From the NCBI GenBank assembly GCA_937928595.1, contig CALGJV010000012.1:124001-188000 (forward strand): a stretch of DNA of 64,000 bases. The letters are read 5' to 3'. The translations under genes and the position numbers were made by a program. This stretch comes from an uncultured Phycisphaerae bacterium (GTDB lineage Bacteria > Planctomycetota > Phycisphaerae > UBA1845 > Fen-1342). This document shows positions 5,611 to 46,662 of the stretch, in pieces (positions within the stretch are counted from its first letter, which is position 1; the number at the start of each line of letters is the position of its first letter). The notes beneath the pieces were generated by a model that saw only the letters and a list, made by a program, of their open reading frames with translations, was not told the origin of the DNA and did no database searches.

Positions 5611-7785
5611 ATGCAAAAGATTTGCTCCGTCGTGTTGCTCGCCGTCGCGGTGCTTCCCACCGCTACGGCCACCGTGTTCATCAATGAGGTGTTCATCAAT
5701 CCGCCGGGGAGCTCGGCGGACGACACCCGCGAGTTCATTGAGCTGCTGGGCACCCCGGGCCGCAGCCTGGACGGCTACGCCGTCGCGCTGGTCAACGGCG
5801 CGCTCACAAAGTACTACCCGCTCGGTTCGATTCCGCCCCGGCCGGCGGCGCAAGAGATCGACGAGTTTTTCAGTCTCGACGGTCTGCGGCTGGGGCCCAA
5901 CGGCCTGCTGGTCATCGGCATCGGCTCGAGCTCGATGTACCCGACGCTGCTGGCCGACACGAACTTCCAGCGGTGGAACACGCTCTGGAACGGCGGGTTG
6001 GACACGCCGGGCAAGCTGAACAACGACGGGAGCAACACGGTGCTACTGCTGCGGCGGCGGCCCGGCCGGACGCAGGCGGACCCGACCAACCCGGCCGGTC
6101 TGCGGTGGGGCAAGGACATCAACCCGGATGACGAGCTCATCACGCCGGTGACGGATCCGCAGACGGACCAGGCGGTGGATCAGTATGGCGACGGGGATCT
6201 CGACCAGGGCCAGCCGAACGGCATCGACGGCTTCACGCTCGACATGGTCGGGGCGAGCACGCCAGTGGATCCGCTGGACGATCTCGAAGTCGTGGACGAG
6301 GTCAGCTACGAGCACGAGCGCGGCTGGGAATATGACACCGACGCGCGTCGGGTGGATCTGGACAGCCCGGTGCCGGGTCTGCCGCCGCGGCGCGTGCACG
6401 CGCTCGACGACCCGCAGGGCTTCAACCCCGACTGCTTGATCCGCGTGGACTACCGCACGAAGGGCCCCGGCTGGCTGCCGGCGCCGGGGGCGACGGGAGC
6501 GGGCCCGAACGGGATGAACTGGCAGGACACGGCCACGGAGCAGTGGATCCGCGGCGAGAGCGTGGTGGGCAGCGGCGGTCAGGGCGGCAGCCCGCAGTTC
6601 TTCCTCGACAACAGCCCCAACAGCAACCCGGATGCGATTCAGCCGTATATGGTCAACGTCCCGCTGTGGCTGGCCGACGGCCAGGCGCCGGACTACAACT
6701 TCACGGCGCCGAACACATACCAGATCATGGCCGGGCGGCTGAACCCGCTGGCGGTGCCGTACGTCCCGGGCGACGCCGACCGCGACGGCGACTGCGATGC
6801 GGACGACTTGACCAAGGTCGCGGCCGTGTTCGGCGAGCCCGACTGGGTGTTCAGCAATGCCTTCGCCGGAGCGCCGGCCGGCAACGACGGGGATCCCGCC
6901 ACCCAGACGCGGCCCTGGGATGTCGATGCCACCGGCGACAACGGCGTGGAGCCCAGCGACCTCCAGTGGACGCTGAACTTCCAGGGGAGCACTGACGGCC
7001 GCATCGTCGGACGGCAGTACGACAGCACGACGCCCGCTGCGACCGGCGTTTACCTGAACCCGAACACCGGCGTTGCCTGTGCGGTCACGTGGACGGCGCT
7101 GGTGCCCAGCGGTCGGCCGCTGAACGGGCTGCGGGCGGGGGACGTGGTCGAGTTGACGGTGCGCGGGCAGGTGGCAGCCGGGGCGAACACGTTGCCGCAG
7201 CAGCAGAACGGCATCATGCAGTTCGTGCACGACGTGACGCTGAGCACGGGCGGCGTTGCCCGGGTCGAGCAGGTCGTCGCGCTGGGCGCCTTCAGCAAGA
7301 CGCGCGCGGCCCTCGAAGCCCCGGTGGGTTTGTCCGGCGACCAGGGTCTGCGTCGGATCAACGGTCACACCACGAGCTTCACCCAGGGGCTCGCTGCCGC
7401 GGCTGACCTGTACCGCATCCGCCTGCGGGTGTTCGGCGCCGGCACGACGACGGTGGGGCTGGGACCGTCCAGTGAGCCGGGGTTTGCCCTTAGCACGCCG
7501 CATGGAGTGAAGGTCGGTCGGACGGCCGCGAACGGAAATCCGCAGACCGCGACGTACCCGGCGGTACTGACTCTGACGGCGTCGGGTCAGTTGCTGCCCG
7601 GCGACACGAACTGCGACGGCGTCGTGAACTTCGACGACATCGACCCGTTCGTCGTCGCGCTGGGCGGGCAGGCGGCGTACGAAGCCGCGTACCCGGGGTG
7701 CGTGTGGCTGAACGCGGATTGCGACGGCGATGGTGCCGTCACGTTCGATGACATCGATCCGTTCGTGACAATCTTGTCGAGCTGA
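5611..7785 (+). CDS. Large exported lamin-tail protein with dockerin-like repeats (GC-type dockerin tail)
   Basis: A 724-residue secreted protein. The ATG at 5611 follows a T-run and CAGGAGG, and gives a signal peptide (residues 1-20, CSVVLLAVAVLPTATA). Residues 21-125 look like a lamin tail domain (VFINEVFINPPG, EFIELLGTPG). Calcium-binding dockerin/EF-hand-like segments occur at about 386-411 (PGDADRDGDCDADDLTKVAA), about 430-455, and at the end (about 662-724), where GDTNCDGVVNFDDIDPFVVA and DCDGDGAVTFDDIDPFV repeat with paired cysteines. That ending fits the GC-type dockerin anchors annotated in planctomycetes. It is probably a surface or extracellular-matrix protein. A terminator hairpin follows. 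The partner that binds the dockerin tail is unknown. Confidence 0.82.
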   Translation: MQKICSVVLLAVAVLPTATATVFINEVFINPPGSSADDTREFIELLGTPGRSLDGYAVALVNGALTKYYPLGSIPPRPAAQEIDEFFSLDGLRLGPNGLLVIGIGSSSMYPTLLADTNFQRWNTLWNGGLDTPGKLNNDGSNTVLLLRRRPGRTQADPTNPAGLRWGKDINPDDELITPVTDPQTDQAVDQYGDGDLDQGQPNGIDGFTLDMVGASTPVDPLDDLEVVDEVSYEHERGWEYDTDARRVDLDSPVPGLPPRRVHALDDPQGFNPDCLIRVDYRTKGPGWLPAPGATGAGPNGMNWQDTATEQWIRGESVVGSGGQGGSPQFFLDNSPNSNPDAIQPYMVNVPLWLADGQAPDYNFTAPNTYQIMAGRLNPLAVPYVPGDADRDGDCDADDLTKVAAVFGEPDWVFSNAFAGAPAGNDGDPATQTRPWDVDATGDNGVEPSDLQWTLNFQGSTDGRIVGRQYDSTTPAATGVYLNPNTGVACAVTWTALVPSGRPLNGLRAGDVVELTVRGQVAAGANTLPQQQNGIMQFVHDVTLSTGGVARVEQVVALGAFSKTRAALEAPVGLSGDQGLRRINGHTTSFTQGLAAAADLYRIRLRVFGAGTTTVGLGPSSEPGFALSTPHGVKVGRTAANGNPQTATYPAVLTLTASGQLLPGDTNCDGVVNFDDIDPFVVALGGQAAYEAAYPGCVWLNADCDGDGAVTFDDIDPFVTILSS

Positions 7786-8161
7786 GCCCGGCGAGACGCC
7801 ACGCATAGACGCATGGCGGCGGAGCGGTGCGCCCGAGAACGGGGCGGCCGCTCCGCCGATGCTTTTTGCGGCACATCCGTCGGGGGGTCGCCGGGGCGCC
7901 CGATAACGATTCGCCGGCGTTGGAGCCCGCGGCGCGGGTTATCGGGCGGGGGTCGGGCCGGCCGGCGCGGCTCTGCTTCATCCCGCACTCGATTTAACCA
8001 CCCATTGCGGCGGAACGATAACGCCAGTGACCGCCGCACAAGTGTCCGTGCGGGAGTGGGCGGTGTGCCTCGAGGGCGCGCCGCGGGCGGATGGTTGCGG
8101 CGTGTCGGAGCCCGCTCGCGCAACCGCGCGTGAGGACGCGCACAGAAACGATGGGACCGCC
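7786..8161. other. Intergenic region between the dockerin protein and cheA
   Basis: The region holds the terminator of the upstream gene (7817-7867) and a second dyad, CCCGATAAC at 7899-7907 with its inverse GTTATCGGG at 7938-7946, 30 bases apart. The second dyad is a possible protein site or weak hairpin. No gene is supported here, and no clear promoter for cheA was found. Confidence 0.5.
7817..7867 (+). terminator. Rho-independent terminator
   Basis: An 11-bp perfect stem (7817-7827 with 7848-7858) with a 20-base loop is followed by five Ts (7863-7867), 30 bases after the dockerin-protein stop. Confidence 0.65.
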
Positions 8162-32973: not shown

Positions 32974-33360
32974 TCAGTTGGCGAGCAGCTTCTCGGTGAC
33001 CTCGAGCAGCCGCTCCATGCGGAAGGGCTTGTTGAGGTACTCGTCCACGCCCAGGGCCTCGGCGTACTGGCGGTGCCGCTTGCCCTGATTACCGGTGATC
33101 ATGACGACGCGGGGGCCGGCGGACCGCGGTTTGCCCTGCCGCAGTTTCTCGAGCACGAGGAACCCGCTTTTCTGCGGAAGCATGATGTCGAGGATCACGA
33201 GGTCGAAGTCCTGCGACTCGGCCAGCGCCACCGCGGCGTTGCCGTCGGCCGCCGTCTGGATGGTCGCCCCCGTATCAGACAATCCGGTCCTGATTGCGGT
33301 TACGATGTCCGGGTCGTCATCGACGACGAGGATGCTTTTGCCTTCGAGCTTGCCGGGCAC
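32974..33360 (-). CDS. Single-domain response regulator (CheY-like)
   Basis: A 128-residue receiver domain with no output domain. The acidic pocket is ILVVDDDPD (Asp14, Asp15, Asp16), the phospho-acceptor is Asp58 in LVILDIMLPQKSGF, the conserved Thr is in VVMITGN and the Lys in EYLNKPFR. It should act by protein-protein contact, like CheY or Spo0F. The GTG start at 33360 is set by AAGGAG six bases upstream; the much longer open frame upstream is a shadow over other genes. It heads a minus-strand operon with its own promoter. A link to the CheA at 8-10 kb is possible but not shown. Confidence 0.92.
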   Translation of the reverse strand: MPGKLEGKSILVVDDDPDIVTAIRTGLSDTGATIQTAADGNAAVALAESQDFDLVILDIMLPQKSGFLVLEKLRQGKPRSAGPRVVMITGNQGKRHRQYAEALGVDEYLNKPFRMERLLEVTEKLLAN

Positions 33361-34899: not shown

Positions 34900-37116
34900 A
34901 TGGTCGAGATCACGATTCACGGGCGCGGCGGGCAAGGGGGCGTCACGCTGGCCAAGCTGATCGCGTCGGCTTACTTCCTGCGCGACAAGTACGTGCAGGC
35001 GTTCGGCGTGTACGCGGCGGAGCGGTCGGGTGCGCCGGTCCAGGCGTACGTGCGGATCGACGACGTCGAGATCACGAATCACAATCAGGTGCGAACGCCG
35101 GATCACGTCATCGTGCTGGACCGCACGCTCATCGGTCCGCGGGTGCAGGCGGGGCTCAAACCCGAGGGATGGCTGATCCTGAACTCGGCGGACCCCCCGG
35201 AGAAGTTCGCCGAGGTGTTCCCCGGCCGGCGGGTAGCCACGGTGGACGCAACCGGAATTGCGGTCGCGAACGGCCTGGGTACGCGAACCGTCCCGATCGT
35301 CAACACGACGATGCTGGGAGCGGTAGCGAAGGTGCTCGGGCTCGAACGGAAGGATGTTGATGCGGCCCTGCACCACACGGGCTTTCGCGGGGCGAATCTC
35401 CAGTCGGCCGAGCAGGCGTACGCGGCGGTCGCGTTGAAGACGTTGCCGGGACGCATCGCGGCGCCGGTGCCGGCGGCCGCCGGGCGGGTCGCGAGCCTGT
35501 TCGACAGCGACGTGGGCGCGATGCCGGCCATACGCACGGGCAACTGGGCGACGCGGAGGCCCGAGCGGCACGAGCTGACCCCGCCGTGCAACCACGGGTG
35601 CCCCGCGGCGAATGACGTCCGCGGCTTCGTGCAGGCCGTCGGCCGCAAGGACTACGACCAGGCGTTGGAGATCATCCTGCGGACATCGCCCTTGCCCGGG
35701 GTGTGCGGGCGCGTCTGTCCGGCGCCGTGCATGGAGGCCTGCAACCGGCGCGAGCACGACGAAGCGGTCAACGTGCGGGAGCTGGAGCGGTACGTCGCCG
35801 ACCACGCGCGTTGGCCGATGCCCACGCGGCCGTCGCGCGCCGAGCGGATTGCGGTGGTCGGGTCGGGCCCGGCGGGGCTGAGTGCGGCGTATCACCTGGC
35901 CCGGCTGGGGTATCCGGTCACGATCTACGAGTCGCAGGCCGAGCTGGGTGGCGTGATGCGCACGGGCATCCCGGCGTATCGCCTGCCGCGGGACGTGCTG
36001 GATCGCGAGATCAGCTTCATCCTGCGGCACGGGATCGAGGCGCGGACCGGCCTGCAGGTGGATCGGTCGAAACTGCTGGAGCTGACGCACCTGCACGCGG
36101 CGGTGTTCGTGGCGACGGGGCTTCAGGAATCGCGGGCGCTCAATCTGGGGCAGGTCAGTTCGGAGACGGTCTCGCAAGGCATCGACTTCCTGGACCGGGC
36201 CCGGCGCGGGGAGGAGCGGCTCGCGGGGCTGCGGGTCGCGGTCATCGGGGGCGGCAACACGGCCATGGATGCGGCCCGCACGGCGCGGCGGCTCGGCGCT
36301 CGCAACGTGGTGGTGCTCTACCGTCGAACTCGGGCGGAGATGCCGGCAATCCACGAGGAGATCGAGGAAGCGCTTGAGGAGGGCATCGAGTTGCAGGAGC
36401 TGGTGAGCCCCTTGCGGCTGCACCACGACGCGCTCGGCCCGGTCCTGACCTGCCAGCGGATGCGCCTGGGAGAACCGGATGCGTCGGGCCGGCGCAGTCC
36501 CGTGCCGATCGAGAGCGAGGATGCCCAGTTCGAGGTGCGGTGCGACCGCGTGCTGCTGGCGCTGGGGCAGACGCCGGACCTGTCGATCTTCCCCGAGGGC
36601 AGCGACGTTCACGACGGGCAGAAGCTGCTGGGGTTGACGGGCGCGCCGGTCTTCGCGGGCGGCGACTTCGCGACGAACGACGGCACGGTGACGGCTGCGA
36701 TCGGCAGCGGGCGGCGCGCGGCGCTGCACATCCACCGCACGCTGACGGGCGAGGACCTGTTCCCGCCGGAGCCGGCCCCGGTGGCGGGCCCCGAGGTCAT
36801 CGCGCTGCACCATTTCGCGCACGCCCCGCGCGAGCGCGGCGTGACGGTGCCGGCAGCGGTGCGGCGGCACAGCTTCACCGAAGTGCGGCTGGGGCTGGTG
36901 GACGAGCCGGGGCACGCGGCCGCGGCGCTGGAGGCGCAGCGGTGCCTGAGCTGCGGCGTGTGCAACGAGTGCGACCGCTGCCTGTCGTACTGTCCGGAGG
37001 GGATCCTGCTGCACCGCGGGCCGGGCGAGTACGAGTTCGACTACGACTACTGCAAGGGCTGCGGCATCTGCGCGAGCCAGTGCCCGCGCGGGGTCGTGTA
37101 CATGGCGGAGCTATAG
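34900..37116 (+). CDS. 2-oxoacid:ferredoxin oxidoreductase gamma-FAD/NAD(P)-delta fusion
   Basis: A 738-residue fusion. Residues 1-190 are the gamma subunit (HGRGGQGGVTLAKLIASAYF). Residues about 225-300 are a GltD-type iron-sulfur domain (CNHGCPAANDV with Cys230 and Cys234, then PGVCGRVCPAPCMEACNR). Residues 316-640 are a glutamate-synthase-small-subunit-like FAD/NAD(P)H module: VVGSGPAGLSAAYHLARLG, VIGGGNTAMDAARTARRLG and a GGDFATNDGTV end. Residues 680-738 are the delta ferredoxin with CLSCGVCNECDRCLSYCPEG (from Cys682) and YCKGCGICASQCPRG. Alpha and beta genes follow. The fusion should let the enzyme exchange electrons directly with NAD(P)H. Pyruvate is the likeliest substrate but other 2-oxoacids are possible. 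Confidence 0.9.
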   Translation: MVEITIHGRGGQGGVTLAKLIASAYFLRDKYVQAFGVYAAERSGAPVQAYVRIDDVEITNHNQVRTPDHVIVLDRTLIGPRVQAGLKPEGWLILNSADPPEKFAEVFPGRRVATVDATGIAVANGLGTRTVPIVNTTMLGAVAKVLGLERKDVDAALHHTGFRGANLQSAEQAYAAVALKTLPGRIAAPVPAAAGRVASLFDSDVGAMPAIRTGNWATRRPERHELTPPCNHGCPAANDVRGFVQAVGRKDYDQALEIILRTSPLPGVCGRVCPAPCMEACNRREHDEAVNVRELERYVADHARWPMPTRPSRAERIAVVGSGPAGLSAAYHLARLGYPVTIYESQAELGGVMRTGIPAYRLPRDVLDREISFILRHGIEARTGLQVDRSKLLELTHLHAAVFVATGLQESRALNLGQVSSETVSQGIDFLDRARRGEERLAGLRVAVIGGGNTAMDAARTARRLGARNVVVLYRRTRAEMPAIHEEIEEALEEGIELQELVSPLRLHHDALGPVLTCQRMRLGEPDASGRRSPVPIESEDAQFEVRCDRVLLALGQTPDLSIFPEGSDVHDGQKLLGLTGAPVFAGGDFATNDGTVTAAIGSGRRAALHIHRTLTGEDLFPPEPAPVAGPEVIALHHFAHAPRERGVTVPAAVRRHSFTEVRLGLVDEPGHAAAALEAQRCLSCGVCNECDRCLSYCPEGILLHRGPGEYEFDYDYCKGCGICASQCPRGVVYMAEL

Positions 37117-37164
37117 GGCGCCGCGGCCCGTGCCGTGCGCGGGCCGCACGCGACGGAGACTCAC

Positions 37165-38352
37165 GTGGCGCGCTCACTCGTCACCGGTAATCACGCCGCC
37201 GGGCACACGCTCGCGCTGGCCGGCGAGGCCAACCGCGCCGCCCGCGGCTGCGTCTGCGGCGCCTACCCGATCACCCCGCAGACCGAGATCATCGAGTTCC
37301 TGCGGAGTTTCCCGTTTTCGAAGGGCCGCGTCGTCCCGGTCGAGTCCGAGCACAGCGCGATGGCCGTGTGCATCGGCGGCGCGCTGGCCGGCGCCCGCAC
37401 GTTCACGGCCAGCTCGGCCAACGGGCTGGCGTACATGACCGAGAACGTCTTCGCCGCGGGGTACTACCGGCTGCCGATCGTGCTGATCGGCGTGAACCGC
37501 ACGCTCGGCCCGCCGTGGAACATCTGGGTGGACCAGGGCGACACGCTCGCGCTGCGCGACGCCGCCTGGCTCCAGTTCTACACCGAGTCGCACCAGGACC
37601 TCGTCGATACGATCCTGCTGGCGTTCCGCGTGGCCGAGGACCCGCGCATCCTCCTGCCGGCGCTCGTCGCCGAAGACGGCTTCGTCGTCTCGCACACGCA
37701 GATGGTCGTCGATCTGCCCGAGCTGCCGCAGGTCGAGAAGTTCCTGCGGCCGTGCGACCTCCCGCACCGCCTGCGCGGCAAGGGCGTGACGGTCGGCGGC
37801 ATGATCTTTCCGCAGGACACCGCGCATCACCGCCACGAGATCCAGGCCGCGATGGACCGCGTGCCGGCCGTCCTCGCCGAGGCCCTGGACGAGTTCGAGC
37901 GGGTCTTCGGGCGCCGGCCGCACGGCGTGCTGTCGGCCGAGCACACCGAGGACGCGGAGACCGTGCTGGTGGCCTGCAACACGATGGTCCGCACGGCCCG
38001 CACCGTGGTCGAGCAGCGGCGGGCCCGCGGCGAGCGGATCGGCCTGGTCAAGGTCAAGCTGTTCCGGCCGTTCCCGCGGCGCGAGTACGCTCGCGTGCTG
38101 AAGGGGGCGCGGCGCATCGCCGTGCTCGACCGCAACCACTCGCCGGGCTCGGGCGGCATCCTCTGGCAGGAGATCGCGGCGAGCCTGCGGCCGCCCTACG
38201 TCAACGGCGACTGCCGGGTCGAGGTGTTGCAGGATTATCTGGTCGGGCTGGGCGGGGGCGACGTGACGCCCGCGGTGCTCGACGAGATCCTGGCGGACCT
38301 GGCCGGACGCAAGACGGCCGGCGAACCCGAGTTCAAGGAGGTGCCGCTATGA
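37165..38352 (+). CDS. porA: 2-oxoacid (pyruvate):ferredoxin oxidoreductase alpha subunit
   Basis: A 395-residue alpha subunit. It contains the N-terminal pyrimidine-binding domain with GAYPITPQTEIIEFL, the Glu-containing VESEHSAMAV, TASSANGLAYMTENVFAAGY and NRTLGPPWNIWVDQGD. Domain II follows with the VKVKLFRPFP segment and AVLDRNHSPGSGG. The protein pairs with PorB to decarboxylate a 2-oxoacid with CoA and reduce ferredoxin. I chose the GTG at 37165 (CGGAGACTCAC upstream), which leaves the usual short lead-in to TGNHAAG; the next in-frame GTG is at 37135. The stop overlaps the porB start (ATGA). Confidence 0.92.
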   Translation: MARSLVTGNHAAGHTLALAGEANRAARGCVCGAYPITPQTEIIEFLRSFPFSKGRVVPVESEHSAMAVCIGGALAGARTFTASSANGLAYMTENVFAAGYYRLPIVLIGVNRTLGPPWNIWVDQGDTLALRDAAWLQFYTESHQDLVDTILLAFRVAEDPRILLPALVAEDGFVVSHTQMVVDLPELPQVEKFLRPCDLPHRLRGKGVTVGGMIFPQDTAHHRHEIQAAMDRVPAVLAEALDEFERVFGRRPHGVLSAEHTEDAETVLVACNTMVRTARTVVEQRRARGERIGLVKVKLFRPFPRREYARVLKGARRIAVLDRNHSPGSGGILWQEIAASLRPPYVNGDCRVEVLQDYLVGLGGGDVTPAVLDEILADLAGRKTAGEPEFKEVPL

Positions 38353-39257
38353 CGACGCTGGCCGCACCCGCGGCGGCCGCCCGCTGCGACGGCGTGCTGC
38401 GCCCCGGCAACACGAACTGCGCCGGCTGCGGCATGTCGATCGGCCTCCAGTGGCTGGAGCAGGCGTTGGAGGGCGCCCGGCCGACGCTGTGCATCCCGGC
38501 CTGCTGCGGCATCGTGACGGCGGGCGCGTTTCCGACCAGCGCGTACGGGGTGCCGACGATCGCGACGACGTTCGCCAGCGCGGCGGCGGTGGCGACCGGC
38601 GTGGCGTCGGTCGTGGAGCTGAACCGCGAGGCCGACCTGACGGTGTGCTGGACGGGCGACGGCGGCACGTACGACATCGGCTTGGCGACGCTCTCGGCCG
38701 CCGCCGAACGCAACGAGAACATCCTGTACGTCTGCTACGACAACGAGATCTACGGGAACACCGGGGGGCAGCGGAGCAGCGCGACGCCGCAGGGCGTGAA
38801 GACCAGCACGACCACGCAGGGGAAGGCCGAGCCGAAAAAGGACATCGTCGCGATTCTCGCGGCGCACCGCATCCCGTACGCGGCGACGTTGTCCGTCGCG
38901 CACCGCGACGACTTCCTGCGGAAGGTCCGCACCGCGCGCGACACGCGCGGCTTCCGGTTTCTGCTGATGCTCTCGCCGTGCCCCACCGGCTGGAAGAGCG
39001 AGCCGGAGGACAGCGTCGAGCTCATCCGCATGGCTGTCGGCTGCGGCCTGTTCCCGCTCTACGAGGTTTTCGAGGGTCGGCGCTATCGGATCAACGCCCG
39101 GCCGGACGGCACGCCGCTCGAGGATTACCTGGGCCGCCAGCGGCGGTACAAGTCCGAGTCGCTTGACCTGGCGCGGCTGAAGGCGGACATCGCCGCCCAG
39201 TGGGCCTACCTCGAGGCGATGGAGCGGGCCTTCCCCGCGGCCACCGACGGTGCCTGA
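38349..39257 (+). CDS. porB: 2-oxoacid (pyruvate):ferredoxin oxidoreductase beta subunit
   Basis: A 302-residue thiamine-diphosphate subunit. It shows the N-terminal [4Fe-4S] cysteines in NTNCAGCGMSI, a downstream ACCGIVTAG, and the ThDP/Mg motif GDGGTYDIGLATLSAAAERN with NEIYGNTGGQRS. It overlaps porA by four bases, so the two are translationally coupled. With porA and the gamma-FAD-delta fusion it makes a complete enzyme. The C-terminal half contains CPTGWKSEPEDS, giving one more conserved cysteine. Confidence 0.94.
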   Translation: MTTLAAPAAAARCDGVLRPGNTNCAGCGMSIGLQWLEQALEGARPTLCIPACCGIVTAGAFPTSAYGVPTIATTFASAAAVATGVASVVELNREADLTVCWTGDGGTYDIGLATLSAAAERNENILYVCYDNEIYGNTGGQRSSATPQGVKTSTTTQGKAEPKKDIVAILAAHRIPYAATLSVAHRDDFLRKVRTARDTRGFRFLLMLSPCPTGWKSEPEDSVELIRMAVGCGLFPLYEVFEGRRYRINARPDGTPLEDYLGRQRRYKSESLDLARLKADIAAQWAYLEAMERAFPAATDGA

Positions 39258-39282
39258 CGCGGTCGCGCGGTACACTGCCCGC

Positions 39283-40146
39283 ATGCCGCGCTGCCTGTTC
39301 GCGTCCGATCTGCACGGGCGCACCGACCGCTACGAGACGCTGCTGGCCGAGGTCCGGGCCCGGCCGCCGGCCGCGGTGTTCCTGGGGGGCGACCTGCTGC
39401 CGCACGGGCTGCGGCCCGTCCGTGCGGCGGAGGCGGAGTACGCGGACTTCCTGGGGGACTACCTCGCGCCGCGCCTGCGGGCGCTGCGGGCCGACCTGGG
39501 CGGTGCGTATCCGCGCGTGTTCGTGATTCTCGGGAACGATGATCCGCGCTCCGCGGAGGCGATGGTGCGGGCGCTGGCCGACGAGGGTCTCTGGGAGTAC
39601 GTCCACGAGCGGCGAGCGACGCTGGAAGGCTGGGACATCTTCGGCTACGCGTGTGTCCCGCCGACGCCGTTCCAGTTGAAGGACTGGGAGCGGTACGACG
39701 TGTCGCGGTATGTCGACCCGGGCTGCGTCGCCCCGGAGGACGGCCGGCGGACCGTGCCGGCGCCGGAATCGGAGTTGCGCTACGCGACGATCGCGGACGA
39801 CCTGGCGCGGCTCACGGGCGACGGGCCGCTGGACCGCGCGATCCTGCTGCTGCACACGCCGCCGTACCGCACGGCGCTGGACCGGGCGGCGCTGGACGGC
39901 CGCGTCATCGACCATGTACCGGTGGATGTGCACGTCGGCAGCATCGCGGTGCGGCGGCTGATCGAGACCCGCCGGCCGGCGGTCGTGCTGTGCGGACACA
40001 TCCACGAGGCGCCACGGCTGACGGGCACGTGGTGCGACCGGGTTGGCGCGACGCCGTGTTTGACGGCGGCGCACGACGGCCCGGAGCTGGCGCTGGTCGA
40101 GTTCGACCCGGCGGATCCGGGCGCCGCTACGCGGACCCTGCGCTGA
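39283..40146 (+). CDS. Calcineurin-like metallophosphoesterase
   Basis: A 287-residue phosphoesterase. The dinuclear-metal motifs are in order: FASDLHGR (Asp, His), GGDLLPHG, GNDDPRS, a late LLHTPP, and CGHIHEAP. The family hydrolyses phosphomonoesters or diesters; no substrate can be assigned. The chosen ATG lies seven bases after a TACACT -10-like element (39271-39276), so a leaderless transcript is possible; a GTG at 39250 that overlaps porB is the alternative start. The 3' end overlaps the convergent PEP/pyruvate-binding gene by 20 bases. Confidence 0.85.
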   Translation: MPRCLFASDLHGRTDRYETLLAEVRARPPAAVFLGGDLLPHGLRPVRAAEAEYADFLGDYLAPRLRALRADLGGAYPRVFVILGNDDPRSAEAMVRALADEGLWEYVHERRATLEGWDIFGYACVPPTPFQLKDWERYDVSRYVDPGCVAPEDGRRTVPAPESELRYATIADDLARLTGDGPLDRAILLLHTPPYRTALDRAALDGRVIDHVPVDVHVGSIAVRRLIETRRPAVVLCGHIHEAPRLTGTWCDRVGATPCLTAAHDGPELALVEFDPADPGAATRTLR

Positions 40147-43100
40147 CGTCGCGGCCCTTGAGGGGCAGGGGGCGGGCGGCGTCGCTGACGGCGTTGATCT
40201 TCAGCGCGAAGCTCGAGCCGCGGGCGATGTCGTCGTCCGTGACGATGTGGACGTCGAGCAGGCCGTCGGACCGGTAGCCGGTCCGCAGGTAGTTCATCTC
40301 GGCCAGGCACAGGCTCCAGCCCTCGAGCCAGCGCTCGAGTTCGGCGCGCTGGGTCTCGGTGCCGCGGAAGTGGACCAGCAGGTCGATGTCGCTGGCGGGG
40401 CCGGCCGTCGCGTTCTTAGTGCTGCCGAACACGTAGAGCCCGACGACGCCGAAGCGCTCGGGGTCGAGCTGGGCGCCGACGCGCTCGGCCATGCGCAGCC
40501 GCCAGCGCCAGTCCTGGTCGCGGGCGGGCTTGCCGACGACTTCCGGGGTGTCGATGGTCTCGACCGCCGCGGCGGGCGGGACCAGCACGCCGACGGCCTC
40601 GTCGAGATCGGCGTTGAGCAGGACGCGCAGCACCTGGCCGCCGGCGGCGGCGGGGACGTCGATCACGCGGAGCACGGGGCTCAGCGCGGCGAAATCGGGC
40701 AGCAGGCTGCCGAGCAGGTTGGTGGAGCGGGTGAAGAAGTCCTCCTGGAAGCGGACGCCCGGCTCGTCGGGATACAGCGGCAGGTAGCGGATGTTCGCCT
40801 CGACGAGGTCCTGGAAGAAGTGCGTGCCGAACGACAGATCAGGCGTGTATTCGCCGCGCTGCCGGGCGATCTCGATCAGCATGGCCGTGTTGCAGATGTC
40901 GGAGTACGTGACGCGCACGCCGAGCTTGATGTCGCCGCGGCTGCCCCAGCGGCCGGGGCCCATCAAGGCGAACTGCCGCTTGGGCAGCAGCTTGTTGAGA
41001 CGCCCCACGGCGCGCCCGACCGCGGCCAGCTCGTCGTAGCTGCTGAGCCGCGCGTAGCCGTCGGGGTCCACGTAGACGATGTGCGTGAGGTCGGGCACGT
41101 GGCCATTGGATACGTGCCGATGGGCGGAGAAGAGCAGACGCTCGACGGGGATGTCCCGCGGGATCGGCGTGGGCGAAGCGCGTTGGGCCGGGTTCTGGGT
41201 GCGGCACTGGAGCAGGTACAGGTCGCGGCCGTCACAAGCGAACTCGATGTCGACCGGGCTGTGGATCTTGTCCTCCAGCAGCTTGAGCACGGTGTGCATC
41301 TGCTTGAGGAAGGGGGTCCGGGTCAGCAGCCCTTCGAAGGTCACGACGATGTCGTCCTCGTTGAAGTCGAGCTGGCCGAGCAGGGGCGGGCGCAGGTGCC
41401 CGTGGCTGCACACGGAGACGAGCTGCTCGATGCCCGGCATCTGGTCGCCGCACATCCGCAGGAAGTCGGTCACTTCGACCGTCTCGAACGTGTTCTGCGC
41501 GAGGTTGATGACGTCCATGAAGCGCGGGGCGTAGCGGACGACCTCCTCCATCGTGGAGTTGACCCGCAGGCCGGGCTGGCCGGGCGAAACCAGGACGGGG
41601 TAGTCGTCGCCGAGACGGTCGACGGCCCGAGTGCCCAGGCCGGGCACGAGCCGCACGAGGCCGTCCTCGCGCTTGATGCGCGGCGACCAGCGGAACTCGT
41701 TGTGGCTGAAGGCCACTCCGGCGAAGGTGGGCGCGAAGTACGGCCAGGCCCTCGCCCCGACGACTTCCTGGATCATGATCCCCATGCCCTCCTGGAAGTC
41801 GAGCAGGTTGCGCTCGGCCCGATACTGGATCGGGTCGGGACTGAAGACCGACGCGTAGATTTCGGTGAGGGCGTCGACGAGCGCGCGGAGACGGTCGGCC
41901 TTGGGGCCCTGGTTGGCCAGGAACAGGCTCTTGTACTTTCCGGAGAACGCGGCCCCGAAGCGGTCCTCGAGCAGGCTCGAGCTGCGGACGATCAGCGGTT
42001 GCTCGCCGAAGTCGTCCAGCGCCAGCGAGAGGCCCTTGATGATGTCGTTGGGGATCTGCGAGTGCTTGAACACCTGCACGATGTCCGGGTACTCCTGCCG
42101 GACCTCGTCGATGTCCTTGTACTTCTGCGTGAAGACGTCCTCGAGATGGTTGCAGTAGATGAAGTCGTGCAGCGCGTCCGAGGTCAGGTACCAGCTCTTG
42201 GGCGTGCGGATGTTCGCGAGCAGGTCGCCGTCGCGGCGGTGCCGGCGGACGATCTGGCTGGCGAGGAACAGCCCGGCGCTCTTGCCGCCGATCTTCCCGT
42301 GCCCGCGGGCCGGGTAGATCATGCGCTGCATGAGGTCGTGGAAATCCTTGATGTCCACGTAATCCTTGGCGATGTTGATGTACTCGAGCTGATCGGTGAG
42401 GAAGCGCCGGATCAGCGAGACGCGCAGCCCCTTGCGCGTCGAGGTGGACAGCTCGACCTCGCCGTGCGTCGCGTGCTGGTAGCGGTGGATGGCCTCGCTG
42501 ACCTCGGCCAGGGACGTGTGGTAGTTCTCCAGCGCGTTCACGAGGAAGCTGGCCCGGTCCTGCTTGATCCACTTCTGGATGCAGGCCACGATCTCCTCGT
42601 CGCTCAGGTGCATCGCGGCGATGCGGAAGGCCTCGTCGACCAGCGTGTCGGCGCTGACCGGGTCGCCGACCTGCCGCGGGCGGTTGGTCTCGATCAGCAG
42701 GTCCGGCGCCGGGCCCCGCTGCCCGTGGGCGAACTGCCGCAGCAGCGCGTCGGCCTCCTTGACGCCGCTCCAGCACAGGTGGTTGATCATCTTGCGGGCG
42801 ACGCGCAGCAGCAGGGCCTGGTCCGTGCGCCGCAGCAGGTCGAGGATCACCGACCAGTCGCGCATCGTGTACTTCGCGATGTTGCGCTCGGCCTTGCGCC
42901 ACTGCTGCATCGACTCGACCAGCTGCCGGTGCATCACGAAGCTGGCCAGCCGGTCCGCGATCGTGTCGATCAGCCGCCGCTCCTCCTTGAGGAACGGCCC
43001 CTCGTCCAGCGGCGGCAGCTCGGCGGTGTAGCACACCTCGAGCTGCCCGACGGACTGGCCCTGCACGCGGATGTCGGTGCGCTGGATCCAGGGCGTTTCC

Positions 43101-43330
43101 GCGAAGTTCTTCGACTCGTAGATCGCGCCGCGGTACGTGATGCGGGCGCCGCACAGGTCCGGGTACTGCCACCCGGACGGCAGCGCGTTGATCACCCCCA
43201 CGAACACCTGGTCCATCGTCAGGGTCTCGTCGCTGGCGAGCTCCTCGACGGTGTACAGGCAGTTCAGTTCCTTGGCCCGCTCGTGCAGGTCGCGAAGGAT
43301 GCTCTCGATCGGCGTGTTCGACGCCGGCAT
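40127..43330 (-). CDS. GAF / PEP-pyruvate-binding / nucleotidyltransferase multidomain protein
   Basis: A 1067-residue protein. Residues 1-150 resemble a GAF domain (PSGWQYPDLCGARITYRG and onward). Residues about 343-720 are the PPDK_N PEP/pyruvate-binding (ATP-grasp) domain: HGKIGGKSAGLFLASQIVRR, VRSSSLLEDRFGAAFSGKY and a DLYLLQCRTQNP end. The usual phosphohistidine swivel domain is absent. Instead a module with ALMGPGRWGSRGDIKLGVRV (Gly793-Ser797) and SFGTHFFQDL (His837) follows. Residues about 945-1050 are a nucleotidyltransferase (VFGSTKNATAGPASDIDLLV). It probably senses a ligand and binds ATP and PEP or pyruvate, but no reaction can be assigned. A shorter relative is immediately upstream. 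Confidence 0.82.
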   Translation of the reverse strand: MPASNTPIESILRDLHERAKELNCLYTVEELASDETLTMDQVFVGVINALPSGWQYPDLCGARITYRGAIYESKNFAETPWIQRTDIRVQGQSVGQLEVCYTAELPPLDEGPFLKEERRLIDTIADRLASFVMHRQLVESMQQWRKAERNIAKYTMRDWSVILDLLRRTDQALLLRVARKMINHLCWSGVKEADALLRQFAHGQRGPAPDLLIETNRPRQVGDPVSADTLVDEAFRIAAMHLSDEEIVACIQKWIKQDRASFLVNALENYHTSLAEVSEAIHRYQHATHGEVELSTSTRKGLRVSLIRRFLTDQLEYINIAKDYVDIKDFHDLMQRMIYPARGHGKIGGKSAGLFLASQIVRRHRRDGDLLANIRTPKSWYLTSDALHDFIYCNHLEDVFTQKYKDIDEVRQEYPDIVQVFKHSQIPNDIIKGLSLALDDFGEQPLIVRSSSLLEDRFGAAFSGKYKSLFLANQGPKADRLRALVDALTEIYASVFSPDPIQYRAERNLLDFQEGMGIMIQEVVGARAWPYFAPTFAGVAFSHNEFRWSPRIKREDGLVRLVPGLGTRAVDRLGDDYPVLVSPGQPGLRVNSTMEEVVRYAPRFMDVINLAQNTFETVEVTDFLRMCGDQMPGIEQLVSVCSHGHLRPPLLGQLDFNEDDIVVTFEGLLTRTPFLKQMHTVLKLLEDKIHSPVDIEFACDGRDLYLLQCRTQNPAQRASPTPIPRDIPVERLLFSAHRHVSNGHVPDLTHIVYVDPDGYARLSSYDELAAVGRAVGRLNKLLPKRQFALMGPGRWGSRGDIKLGVRVTYSDICNTAMLIEIARQRGEYTPDLSFGTHFFQDLVEANIRYLPLYPDEPGVRFQEDFFTRSTNLLGSLLPDFAALSPVLRVIDVPAAAGGQVLRVLLNADLDEAVGVLVPPAAAVETIDTPEVVGKPARDQDWRWRLRMAERVGAQLDPERFGVVGLYVFGSTKNATAGPASDIDLLVHFRGTETQRAELERWLEGWSLCLAEMNYLRTGYRSDGLLDVHIVTDDDIARGSSFALKINAVSDAARPLPLKGRDVSAGSA

Positions 43331-43422
43331 CGGTCACTCCCAGTTCGGCGGCCGCGGCCGCACCTCCGTGTAAAGGATAGAGCGTTCGCGACCGCGCGGC
43401 GACGGGCCCGCCCGTCCGTGCG

Positions 43423-45177
43423 TCAATCCCGGGCGGGCACGATGACCCCCCGCCCCGTGCGGCCGTCGACCCGCACCGCCAGCGGCCGCGGGCACCGGAC
43501 GTGCCGCACCAGCGGCCCCTCGCCGACCAGCGGCAGGGCGGCCAGCGCGTCCCAGTGAATCCGCCCGGGCCCGGCGTGGTGCACCGTGAAGTACAGCACG
43601 CCGAAGCTCGTCATGTTGTGAAAGAAGTGCGAGCCCTGGCTCGGCGTGACGTGCATATCCGGCCGCGTCGCCTCCACGATCACGCGCGCGGCGGCGATCT
43701 GGGGCCAGGTCACCGGGATGCCCAGCCACGGATCGCTGCTGCCCCAGCGGCCGAACCCGATCAGGACGCAGTGCCGGCCGGCCTCCACCAGCGCCCGCGA
43801 CAGGGTTTCAAGCTCGGCCGCCGCGGCCCGCGTGTGCTTCGGCTCGAAGGTGTCCGGGCGGACGTAAACGATGTCGGTCAGGTCGTCCCGGGCCCCGTTG
43901 CCCAGTACCCGGTCGCTGCTGACCAGGGCGGCGGGGTCGGCCAGCACGTGGTCGGGCACCTCGATGCGTTCCCCGGACACGAGCGTCGGGCGAAGCTGGA
44001 GAAAGCCGAACTCGGCCGGGCCGCGGCGCTCCGGATCGAACGTGACGGCGAACTCGATCTCCACGTCGCTGGCCAGCGCCTCGCGGCAGACGGTCATCAG
44101 GTGGCGAATGGCGGAATTGAGCGGGATTTCGTCGAGTTCGAGGAGCGGGGCGAACGTGAGCGCCCGGGGCCCGCTGCGGCCGAGGCCCATGACGAGCCGG
44201 TCCGACTCGCCGTCGTACGTGGACGCAAGGGGGCGGAGCGTGCCGTCGGCTTCGGCATCGGCGAGCGAGCCGCTGACGAGATACTCGGCCTCGTTGATCG
44301 GGTCATAGGCGGGCGGCGGGCCCATGTTGACGGCCCAGAACTCGGTCTGGGTGTTGTCGAGGAGTTCGCGGGCGGAGCCGTAGGGCGGGGGCAGCGCCGG
44401 GTAGGCGGGGGAATACGTCCAGACGACGCCGCCGTCGACGATCGTTTTGCCCAGGCCCAGCGCGAGGCTGACGACCCCGTCCTCGGGCCGGGCGGGGGGC
44501 ATCGGATAGAAGTTGTACGTGCGGATGACGCCGCTCAGGGCAGGGTAGAAACGGTCGCCGTGGCGCCGGCCGACGACTTCCTGGATGATGACGGCCATGC
44601 GCTCGTCCTCGCACGCGCGGCCGATGGCGCGGAGGTAGCGGCGGGCGTCCTGGAAGAAGGTGGAGGCCCAGACGTACTTGATCGCCTCGGCCAGGCGCTG
44701 GAAGCGGTGGTCGGTGTCCGGCTGGTTGTTGGCGATCATCTTGGTGGCGTACGTGCCGGCGAAGGGGTGGCGCAGGGCGTCCTCGAGCAGGCTCGAGGAG
44801 CGGACCGCCAGCGGCGTATGCATCTCCTGCACGATCGCGCGCAGGTCGCCGACAATGAGGGGTGGCAAGTCGGCCCGCTGGAACGCATGCGCGAGGCGAT
44901 CGTCGGGCGGCTCTTCGCGGACCACGTCCCACAACCGGTTGTGGGCCATGAACTGCTCGAACGTGTCGGTCTGTACGACCGTGAGGCGCGGAATGCGGAT
45001 GGTCAGCCCCGGGATCAGCCCCGGGGGGCACTGCTCCGTGATGATGCGCTTGATGAAGGCCAGCCCCAGGGCCTTGCCGCCGAGCGCGCCGGTCCCAATG
45101 ACGGTAAAGTCGCGGTCCGAGGACAGGAACTGCCGGTCGAACGGAGGGAAGCTACTTTCGGCCGCGACGACGGGCAT
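43423..45177 (-). CDS. PEP/pyruvate-binding (PPDK_N) protein lacking the swivel and TIM-barrel domains
   Basis: A 584-residue relative of the neighbouring multidomain protein, without GAF and nucleotidyltransferase parts. The PPDK_N domain shows GTGALGGKALGLAFIKRI, VRSSSLLEDALRHPFAGTYA and MAVIIQEVVG. The C-terminal module shares the GFGRWGSSDPWLGIPVTWPQ motif (Gly476-Ser480) and SQGSHFFHNM (His517). Full PEP synthase or PPDK would add a phosphohistidine domain and a catalytic barrel; neither is present. ATG 45177, with GGGAGAAGG upstream, was chosen over a longer frame. It lies 92 bases upstream of the larger relative and is divergent from gdhA. Confidence 0.82.
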   Translation of the reverse strand: MPVVAAESSFPPFDRQFLSSDRDFTVIGTGALGGKALGLAFIKRIITEQCPPGLIPGLTIRIPRLTVVQTDTFEQFMAHNRLWDVVREEPPDDRLAHAFQRADLPPLIVGDLRAIVQEMHTPLAVRSSSLLEDALRHPFAGTYATKMIANNQPDTDHRFQRLAEAIKYVWASTFFQDARRYLRAIGRACEDERMAVIIQEVVGRRHGDRFYPALSGVIRTYNFYPMPPARPEDGVVSLALGLGKTIVDGGVVWTYSPAYPALPPPYGSARELLDNTQTEFWAVNMGPPPAYDPINEAEYLVSGSLADAEADGTLRPLASTYDGESDRLVMGLGRSGPRALTFAPLLELDEIPLNSAIRHLMTVCREALASDVEIEFAVTFDPERRGPAEFGFLQLRPTLVSGERIEVPDHVLADPAALVSSDRVLGNGARDDLTDIVYVRPDTFEPKHTRAAAAELETLSRALVEAGRHCVLIGFGRWGSSDPWLGIPVTWPQIAAARVIVEATRPDMHVTPSQGSHFFHNMTSFGVLYFTVHHAGPGRIHWDALAALPLVGEGPLVRHVRCPRPLAVRVDGRTGRGVIVPARD

Positions 45178-45375: not shown

Positions 45376-46662
45376 ATGAGCAGCAAGCCGTTCAATCCCT
45401 TCCAGATGGCCCAGCAGCAGTTCGACAAGGTGGCCGAGATCCTCGGCCTGGATCAGGCCACCCGCGACCTCCTGCGTGTGCCGATGCGGGAGTACCACTT
45501 CAGCCTGCCGATCCGGATGGACGACGGCGGCTTCAAGGTGTTTCGCGGGTTCCGTATCCAGCACAACGACGCGCGCGGGCCGGGCAAGGGCGGCATTCGC
45601 TTCCACCCGCAGGAGACGGTGGACACGGTGCGGGCGCTGTCGATGTGGATGACGTGGAAGTGCGCGTGCGTGAACATTCCCCTCGGCGGCAGCAAGGGCG
45701 GCATCGTGTGCTCGCCGCACAGCCTGAGCATGACCGAGCAGGAGCGGCTGTGCCGGGCGTGGGTGCGGGCGGTGGCCCGCGACGTCGGGCCGGTGCTGGA
45801 CGTGCCCGCGCCGGACGTGATGACCAACGCGCAGCACATGCTGTGGATGCTGGACGAGTTCGAGCACATCCACGGCGGCAAGTACCCCGGCTTCATCACC
45901 GGCAAGCCGGTCGGCATGGGCGGCTCGCTGGGACGCACGGAGGCCACGGGCTACGGCGTCGTGTTCACGATCCGCGAAGCGCTGAAGGAGCTGGGCGCCA
46001 AGGCCGCCGACACGAAGGCCGCGGTGCAGGGCTTCGGCAACGTCGCCCAGTACGCGATCGAACTCTACCAGCAGATCGGCGGCAAGGTGGTGTGCGTGTC
46101 CTGCTGGGACGAGGGCGCCCAGCAGGCGTTCTCGTTCCTCAAGAAGGACGGGATCGATCTCGCGGCGCTGCGCAAGATCACGGACCGGTTCGGCAGCATC
46201 GACCGCAAGAAGGCCGCCGACCTGGGGTATGAAATCGCCCCGGGCGAGGCGTGGCTCGAGCAGGAGGTCGACATCCTCATTCCGGCCGCGCTGGAGCACT
46301 CGATCACGGGCGAGAATGTGCACAAGATCGACCGCCGCGTGCGGCTGATCGCCGAGGGCGCGAACGGCCCGACGACGCCCGAGGCCGACCACGTGCTCCA
46401 GGAGCGCAACATCTTCACGATCCCGGACTTCCTCGCGAACGCCGGCGGCGTGACGTGCAGCTACCTCGAGCAGGTCCAGAGCAACATGAACTACTTCTGG
46501 GAGAAGGACGAGGTCCTGAGCAAGCTCGACGTGATGATGACCTCGGCCTTCATCGCCGTGAGCGACACCGCCAAGAAGCGCAAGCTCTCGATGCGCGACG
46601 CGGCTTACGTGATCGCGGTTGCGCGCGTGGCGCAGGCCTGCAAGGACCGCGGCTGGGTCTAG
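45376..46662 (+). CDS. gdhA: Glutamate dehydrogenase
   Basis: A 428-residue Glu/Leu/Phe/Val dehydrogenase that interconverts glutamate with 2-oxoglutarate and ammonium. The substrate-side motif is NIPLGGSKGGIVCSP (Lys107), preceded by GPGKGGIRFHPQ. The catalytic-Asp region is DVPAPDVMTNAQHM. The nucleotide-binding domain contains GFGNVAQYA, and the closing conserved part has EGANGPTTPEAD and FLANAGGVTCSYLEQVQ. Length fits the hexameric GDH-I type of about 420-450 residues. The start is set by the first ATG after GGCAGGATC; the ribosome site is modest. It probably draws on 2-oxoacid metabolism next door. Confidence 0.95.
   Translation: MSSKPFNPFQMAQQQFDKVAEILGLDQATRDLLRVPMREYHFSLPIRMDDGGFKVFRGFRIQHNDARGPGKGGIRFHPQETVDTVRALSMWMTWKCACVNIPLGGSKGGIVCSPHSLSMTEQERLCRAWVRAVARDVGPVLDVPAPDVMTNAQHMLWMLDEFEHIHGGKYPGFITGKPVGMGGSLGRTEATGYGVVFTIREALKELGAKAADTKAAVQGFGNVAQYAIELYQQIGGKVVCVSCWDEGAQQAFSFLKKDGIDLAALRKITDRFGSIDRKKAADLGYEIAPGEAWLEQEVDILIPAALEHSITGENVHKIDRRVRLIAEGANGPTTPEADHVLQERNIFTIPDFLANAGGVTCSYLEQVQSNMNYFWEKDEVLSKLDVMMTSAFIAVSDTAKKRKLSMRDAAYVIAVARVAQACKDRGWV

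Follow-up and report, generated by a model that had tools for sequence, protein, structure and literature searches.

The stretch of 64,000 nucleotides analysed here (the window), from contig CALGJV010000012.1 of an uncultured Phycisphaerae bacterium, carries on its minus strand the genes of two proteins, A and B, that share an ATP-grasp domain of the PPDK_N family followed by a C-terminal module with the motifs GRWGS and HFF (Table 1). The gene of A lies downstream of that of B, with 92 bp between them. The pair is bordered by gdhA, coding for a glutamate dehydrogenase (GDH), and by a metallophosphoesterase gene that overlaps the 3' end of the A gene by 20 bp. Since genes of this family adjoin GDH genes in many phyla, a probable role of its members is to sense energy state or a signal and to regulate GDH, an enzyme placed at the junction of carbon and nitrogen metabolism.

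Table 1. Genes, domains and motifs of the A/B locus (window positions; AF2, AlphaFold2).
Feature	Position	Strand	Description or evidence
Protein A gene	40127..43330	-	1067 aa; GAF-like sensor, helical domain, PPDK_N ATP-grasp, GRWGS/HFF module, minimal nucleotidyltransferase
A GAF-like domain, residues 1-140	42911..43330	-	AF2 model, Foldseek to GAF structures 8w26, 3mf0
A helical domain, residues 159-345	42296..42856	-	AF2 model; no Pfam match
A ATP-grasp, residues 346-715	41186..42295	-	Conserved K350, R449, S468, E696, Q708, R710
A C-terminal module, residues 725-920	40571..41158	-	Probable diverged swivel (phosphohistidine) domain
A GRWGS motif, residues 793-797	40940..40954	-	Sequence, conservation
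A invariant His837 codon (SFGTHFF)	40820..40822	-	Sequence, conservation
A minimal nucleotidyltransferase, residues 938-1045	40196..40519	-	Conserved G969 S970, D981, D983, D1026
Protein B gene	43423..45177	-	584 aa; PPDK_N ATP-grasp and GRWGS/HFF module only
B ATP-grasp, residues 24-405	43963..45108	-	PPDK_N; K35, R126, T145
B C-terminal module, residues 419-581	43435..43923	-	AF2 model, Foldseek
B GRWGS motif, residues 476-480	43738..43752	-	Sequence, conservation
B invariant His517 codon (SQGSHFF)	43627..43629	-	Sequence, conservation
gdhA, glutamate dehydrogenase, subclass GDH-I	45376..46662	+	Divergent from B
Calcineurin-like metallophosphoesterase	39250..40146	+	Convergent with A

Pfam assigns PPDK_N to residues 346-722 of A (E 9.8e-54) and 31-405 of B (E 1.4e-33), as the original prediction had stated for both proteins. 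Foldseek relates this part to structures of rifampin phosphotransferase (RPH), phosphoenolpyruvate (PEP) synthase (PEPS) and PPDK, and a sequence search of solved structures found the ATP-grasp part only. R126 and T145 of B align with R117 and T136 of RPH, and K35 is equated with RPH K22 by the GGK motif; replacing K22, R117 or T136 in RPH abolished resistance (PMC4844700). Across 102 sequences of B type and 40 of A type, residues K35, R126, T145/S468, E375, Q394 and R396 hardly vary, and neither do the two module motifs. Judged by sequence, the catalytic residues of the ATP-grasp domains of A and B are intact. The initial description of an ATP/PEP-binding pair holds for ATP, which PPDK_N binds, and finds no support for PEP or pyruvate. 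Neither PF00391 nor the PEP/pyruvate barrel gives a Pfam match in A or B even at E<=1; PPDK_N and the nucleotidyltransferase of A are the only Pfam domains found in the two proteins, with no acceptor-binding domain of the RPH kind. AlphaFold2 (AF2) models of good quality, built from alignments of the window and locus proteins, leave no domain over for a barrel or an acceptor domain (mean pLDDT 89.8 and pTM 0.89 for B, 82.8 and 0.63 for A).

The two additional functional parts that had been assigned to A did not fare equally. Its nucleotidyltransferase is recovered by Pfam (E 3.3e-7) and by Foldseek matches to 2rff, 8xeh and 1wot, which include HEPN-MNT structures, whereas the GAF domain has no match in a Pfam search of A and is read from the AF2 model and weak Foldseek hits (E 0.02-0.1). 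The MNT signature, formed by a GS motif, a DxD and a third Asp, is kept at G969 (34/34), S970 (34/34), D981 (34/34), D983 (32/34) and D1026 (30/32). These intact catalytic residues predict that the domain is a competent minimal nucleotidyltransferase.

The modules of A and B are homologous (E 2e-31 in an hhalign comparison of their profiles), in agreement with the similarity noticed originally, and the positions then given for GRWGS and for the HFF histidine are exact to the residue. H837 is kept in 38/38 and H517 in 101/101 of the homologues covering the site, and GRWG in 38/38 (A) and 98/101 (B), figures that are partly circular because loci were found in part through peptide patterns containing the GRWGS/HFF motifs. 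Homologues obtained by whole-protein search also keep both motifs. In the AF2 models the module, which directly follows the ATP-grasp domain in A and in B, is built of a strand, a helix, a strand ending in GRWGS, a short helix, a strand and a loop, then the segment SxG[ST]H, which opens a helix followed by a strand and a terminal hairpin. The swivel domain of PPDK and PEPS has the same order of elements and its catalytic histidine likewise starts the third helix. Foldseek alignments span ~540-740 columns to most PPDK structures (2x0s gives only 421 with B) versus ~370-470 to RPH, whose swivel domain sits elsewhere in the chain. From this difference in length we infer that the PPDK alignments continue across the module and reach the swivel domain of PPDK. 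Because of this element order and of these alignments, the module is rather likely to be a highly diverged swivel domain and not, as first thought, a unit standing in place of one. A correspondence with a known swivel domain is thus made likely by structure and is not proven by sequence profiles, and the reported lack of a phosphohistidine domain stands for Pfam and probably not for the fold. The idea that the conserved histidine may carry phosphate is supported, and we consider a histidine phosphate on a swivel-type domain to be likely.

A scan of one collection gave at least 575 confirmed relatives, of which 80 loci were kept. These loci belong to Planctomycetota, Zixibacteria, Calditrichota, Bacteroidota, Ignavibacteria, Acidobacteriota, Eisenbacteria, Chloroflexota, Spirochaetes, Gemmatimonadota, Actinomycetota, Desulfobacterota, one archaeal bin and others. 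Cultured Bacteroides strains are among the carriers; as the majority are bins from metagenomes, an isolated unexpected placement may reflect faulty binning. The family includes further architectures. The REC type (~990 aa; a paralogue lies at G000 C33) has two receiver-like domains in front, the first without the phospho-acceptor Asp and the second intact (E187/D188; D257 and S/T291 in 63/63; K310 in 62/63). A2 (~790 aa) and A3 (~890 aa) are shorter relatives of A without the nucleotidyltransferase.

A GDH gene is found at most 1.5 kb away in 53/80 family loci, and in 28/37 of those that extend over at least 15 kb. When equal 1.5 kb flanks are inspected, GDH is present in 16/60 family loci from relatives and in 0/62 control loci of canonical PEPS/PPDK. 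Clustering of the neighbours ranks GDH first by far (51/80 loci), followed by the phosphoesterase (10). Among 60 relatives, GDH lies within 6 kb of A in 14/17 cases, of B in 11/12, of A3 in 6/9 and of REC in 10/30, the proximity expected by chance being ~0.03-0.2 per gene type. The order gdh-B-A-metallophosphoesterase recurs, and the metallophosphoesterase adjoins A in 20/35 A loci, mostly convergently. GDH can be upstream, downstream, divergent or convergent relative to the family gene, so that a single inherited operon does not account for the link. Arrays alternating as GDH-REC-GDH-REC-GDH occur in Bacteroidota/Ignavibacteria (L116 1757-12224, L145 6323-17416). All neighbours that were tested proved to be genuine GDHs, and the ones in B. 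pyogenes (L139), L116 and L130 pass the NCBIfam GDH cut-offs. We have very little doubt that the family is functionally linked to GDH. The significance given at the outset to gdhA as a neighbour is therefore upheld across phyla; that given to the 2-oxoacid oxidoreductase is not, its neighbourhood being unconserved across loci, and it was rejected as a functional neighbour.

The link extends to the subclasses of both partners. GDHs of 61 genomes were grouped by their score to the window enzyme, with subclass limits set on this first sample. GDH-I is present in exactly the 17 genomes carrying A and nowhere else (Fisher p 1.9e-15), and GDH-II in 16/16 A2 genomes plus one GDH-II-only genome (p 8e-14), both values being uncorrected for phylogeny. 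Inside one family the correspondence of A with GDH-I is 12/12 vs 0/15 (p 5.8e-8). A2 does not adjoin GDH in this sample, yet it is matched to its subclass; the association of GDH-III with REC or A3 is looser (p 2e-7). One genome without A or B, G007, has a 107-aa GDH-I fragment inside a contig (L229 7441-7761, G007:C133), and looks as if GDH-I and the A/B set had been lost together. The prediction was checked on 118 further genomes from the phylum, sampled separately. There A2 directly adjoins GDH-II in 5/6 cases (G073, G088, G102, G104, G118) and both A genes are by GDH-I (G079, G110); the exceptions are G086 and G111, which have GDH-I but no A, and G174, which has GDH-II but no A2.

We favour the hypothesis, with a probability of roughly 0.58 for the whole, that A and B are dikinase-type ATP-grasp regulators dedicated to GDH. 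In each protein the ATP-grasp domain would transfer phosphate from ATP to the invariant histidine (His837 in A, His517 in B) on a small mobile C-terminal domain, which would be a phosphohistidine swivel domain in strongly diverged form. As neither protein has a substrate domain, A and B would act on a protein partner, and their phosphorylated form could bind GDH or pass the phosphate to it, tying GDH activity to energy charge. Further signals would enter through the GAF domain in A and the receiver domains in the REC paralogue. A second modification, of AMP type, may come from the nucleotidyltransferase of A, and one of the two may be undone by the linked metallophosphoesterase. The intact ATP site, the invariant histidine, the absence of an acceptor domain, the sensor domains and the dedicated enzyme partner argue together for a role in regulation rather than metabolism, which we hold with good confidence. 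That A and B modify GDH covalently is speculative, as are the kind of modification and its effect. A phylum-crossing control of GDH, in which sensor-fused dikinases each matched to their own GDH subclass reversibly modify the enzyme via a phosphohistidine domain and one type adds an adenylyl-/uridylyltransferase, is likewise a tentative proposal.

Several observations weigh against the regulatory hypothesis. The module compared by hhalign with swivel profiles of PPDK, PEPS and PTS enzyme I, also with a broader alignment, gives nothing above reversed controls; full-length profile alignment loses confidence beyond the module's first strand, and SxG[ST]HFF stands where swivel domains have the motif GGxTSH. 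The metallophosphoesterase is missing from 15/35 A loci. REC genes frequently lack linkage to GDH (20/30 among relatives, many on short contigs), and 0/16 A2 genes among relatives are within 6 kb of it. The co-occurrence tests ignore phylogeny and use GDH subclass limits drawn from the first sample. The failure of the profiles would be accounted for if the module were an unrelated alpha/beta domain, with GRWGS/HFF structural or ligand-binding and the proteins hydrolysing or merely sensing ATP; the conserved Trp and Phe beside Gly and His could indeed form a packing or ligand motif. We judge this unlikely, as a swivel domain shares the element order, the place after the ATP-grasp domain and a histidine opening the third helix, and most PPDK Foldseek alignments are ~200-300 columns longer than the RPH ones. 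The irregular linkage of REC and A2, often far from GDH among close relatives, would suit a GDH association due to shared transcriptional control or to hitch-hiking of neighbours, the dikinase-like proteins acting elsewhere. This is very improbable: neighbours are kept while orientation changes, the PEPS/PPDK control loci have no GDH, and subclass matching persists even between unlinked genes and was confirmed by adjacency in a different sample.

Two other explanations were considered. A and B could be energy sensors that act on GDH by binding only, ATP binding or self-phosphorylation reshaping them to hold GDH active or inactive without transfer. This shares with the favoured hypothesis the GDH linkage and the subclass matching, and follows the model proposed for VadK, of a phosphorylated protein that binds methylcitrate synthase (PMC13400623). 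It leaves the intact nucleotidyltransferase of A and the linked metallophosphoesterase unexplained, and we regard it as unlikely. Less probable still is a small-molecule dikinase, for instance for a 2-oxoacid or a GDH-linked amino acid, whose acceptor would be bound by a partner subunit or by the helical domain. The nearest characterised relatives by fold (RPH, HpeI, PPDK and PEPS) speak for such an enzyme, and two-component small-molecule dikinases exist (HpeHI, PMC12167813); however, A and B have no acceptor domain of either known kind, their GAF, receiver and nucleotidyltransferase domains fit regulation better, and different architectures go with different GDH subclasses.

The closest precedent for A and B is VadK (Rv1127c) of Mycobacterium tuberculosis. 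VadK combines an ATP-grasp and a histidine domain, autophosphorylates His422, co-precipitates methylcitrate enzymes encoded nearby (rv1130, rv1131) and controls methylcitrate-cycle flux (PMC13400623). A and B resemble it as truncated PPDK relatives with an ATP-grasp and a histidine-bearing domain, no substrate domain, and a gene close to that of the target enzyme, here a putative one. VadK is described as a PPDK derivative whose histidine was located by overlay on PPDK, whereas the module of A and B cannot be matched to the PPDK histidine domain by sequence. Its target pathway is different, and no GAF, receiver or nucleotidyltransferase domain and no linked phosphoesterase are reported for it in the text consulted (PMC13400623). 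With PEPS and PPDK, A and B share the PPDK_N ATP-grasp with its catalytic residues and probably the order of ATP-grasp then swivel; unlike them, they have no detectable PF00391 and no PEP/pyruvate barrel, and are not expected to make PEP. RPH and HpeHI provide the closest solved ATP-grasp structures (5hv3, 5hv1, 9goj) and differ by a drug- or phenol-binding domain that A and B do not have (PMC4844700, PMC12167813). MntA adenylylates its partner protein HepT (PMC7641770); the nucleotidyltransferase of A has the same MNT fold and catalytic residues, but is fused to GAF and dikinase domains and linked to GDH. No HEPN partner, as in type VII HEPN-MNT systems, is seen adjacent to A, whose neighbours are GDH, B and the metallophosphoesterase. 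GlnE and GlnD modify an ammonium-assimilating system in the control of glutamine synthetase. No GlnE or GlnD match was found in A with Pfam/NCBIfam, the extent to which homology was searched.

The literature searched, limited to open-licence papers, contains no description of the family or of its GDH link, nor of a dedicated post-translational GDH controller of this kind. The parts come from known superfamilies; their combination, the diverged module and the pairing with GDH were not found described, and there is a real chance that this is a new GDH control system. The original suggestion that the pair belongs to a so far unrecognised, metabolism-coupled system for ATP-dependent sensing or phosphoryl transfer is supported. 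Such a system would be the counterpart for GDH of GlnE/GlnD for glutamine synthetase. It would also provide a large orphan family, likely annotated only by its PPDK_N (PEP/pyruvate-binding) domain, with a definite function, and would join VadK as a second case in which PEP-synthase-like enzymes have become regulators.

Short proteins of GAF-nucleotidyltransferase composition, lacking the ATP-grasp domain and the module, are found beside GDH. One of 265 aa is encoded 9 bp from a GDH gene (L164 4096-6518, G017) and a similar ~265-aa protein 2 kb from another (L155 5994-10436, G012); they support a link of the nucleotidyltransferase to GDH by itself. A kinase of GAF-HisKA-HATPase composition is encoded near GDH and A (L167 12164-13351, G045), its GAF sharing ~42% identity with the GAF of A, and other relatives also have GAF sensor proteins near GDH. 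The Methanomassiliicoccales bin L130 carries GDH-REC-A-phosphoesterase-GDH-REC in a row, possibly by gene transfer or binning error. A candidate stand-alone module open reading frame beside GDH in G039 was rejected: it is a decayed A3-type gene that adjoins GDH-III (L228 ~7000-7800, G039:C218), in a genome that also carries A with GDH-I. In Acidobacteriaceae (L121 2738-5091; L142 8359-10739) a REC-type dikinase without a nearby GDH is found near a flavoprotein pair, the second gene of which passes the cut-off of gltA (NADPH-dependent glutamate synthase); the pair may be NfnAB. In the window, beyond the metallophosphoesterase, one 738-aa protein (34900-37116) fuses a 2-oxoacid:acceptor oxidoreductase gamma subunit, a GltD-like NAD(P)-binding flavoprotein and a PorD-type ferredoxin domain, and is followed by the alpha and beta subunits (37135-39257). 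A stand-alone CheY-like receiver gene (~32974-33350, minus strand) lies upstream of these oxidoreductase genes.

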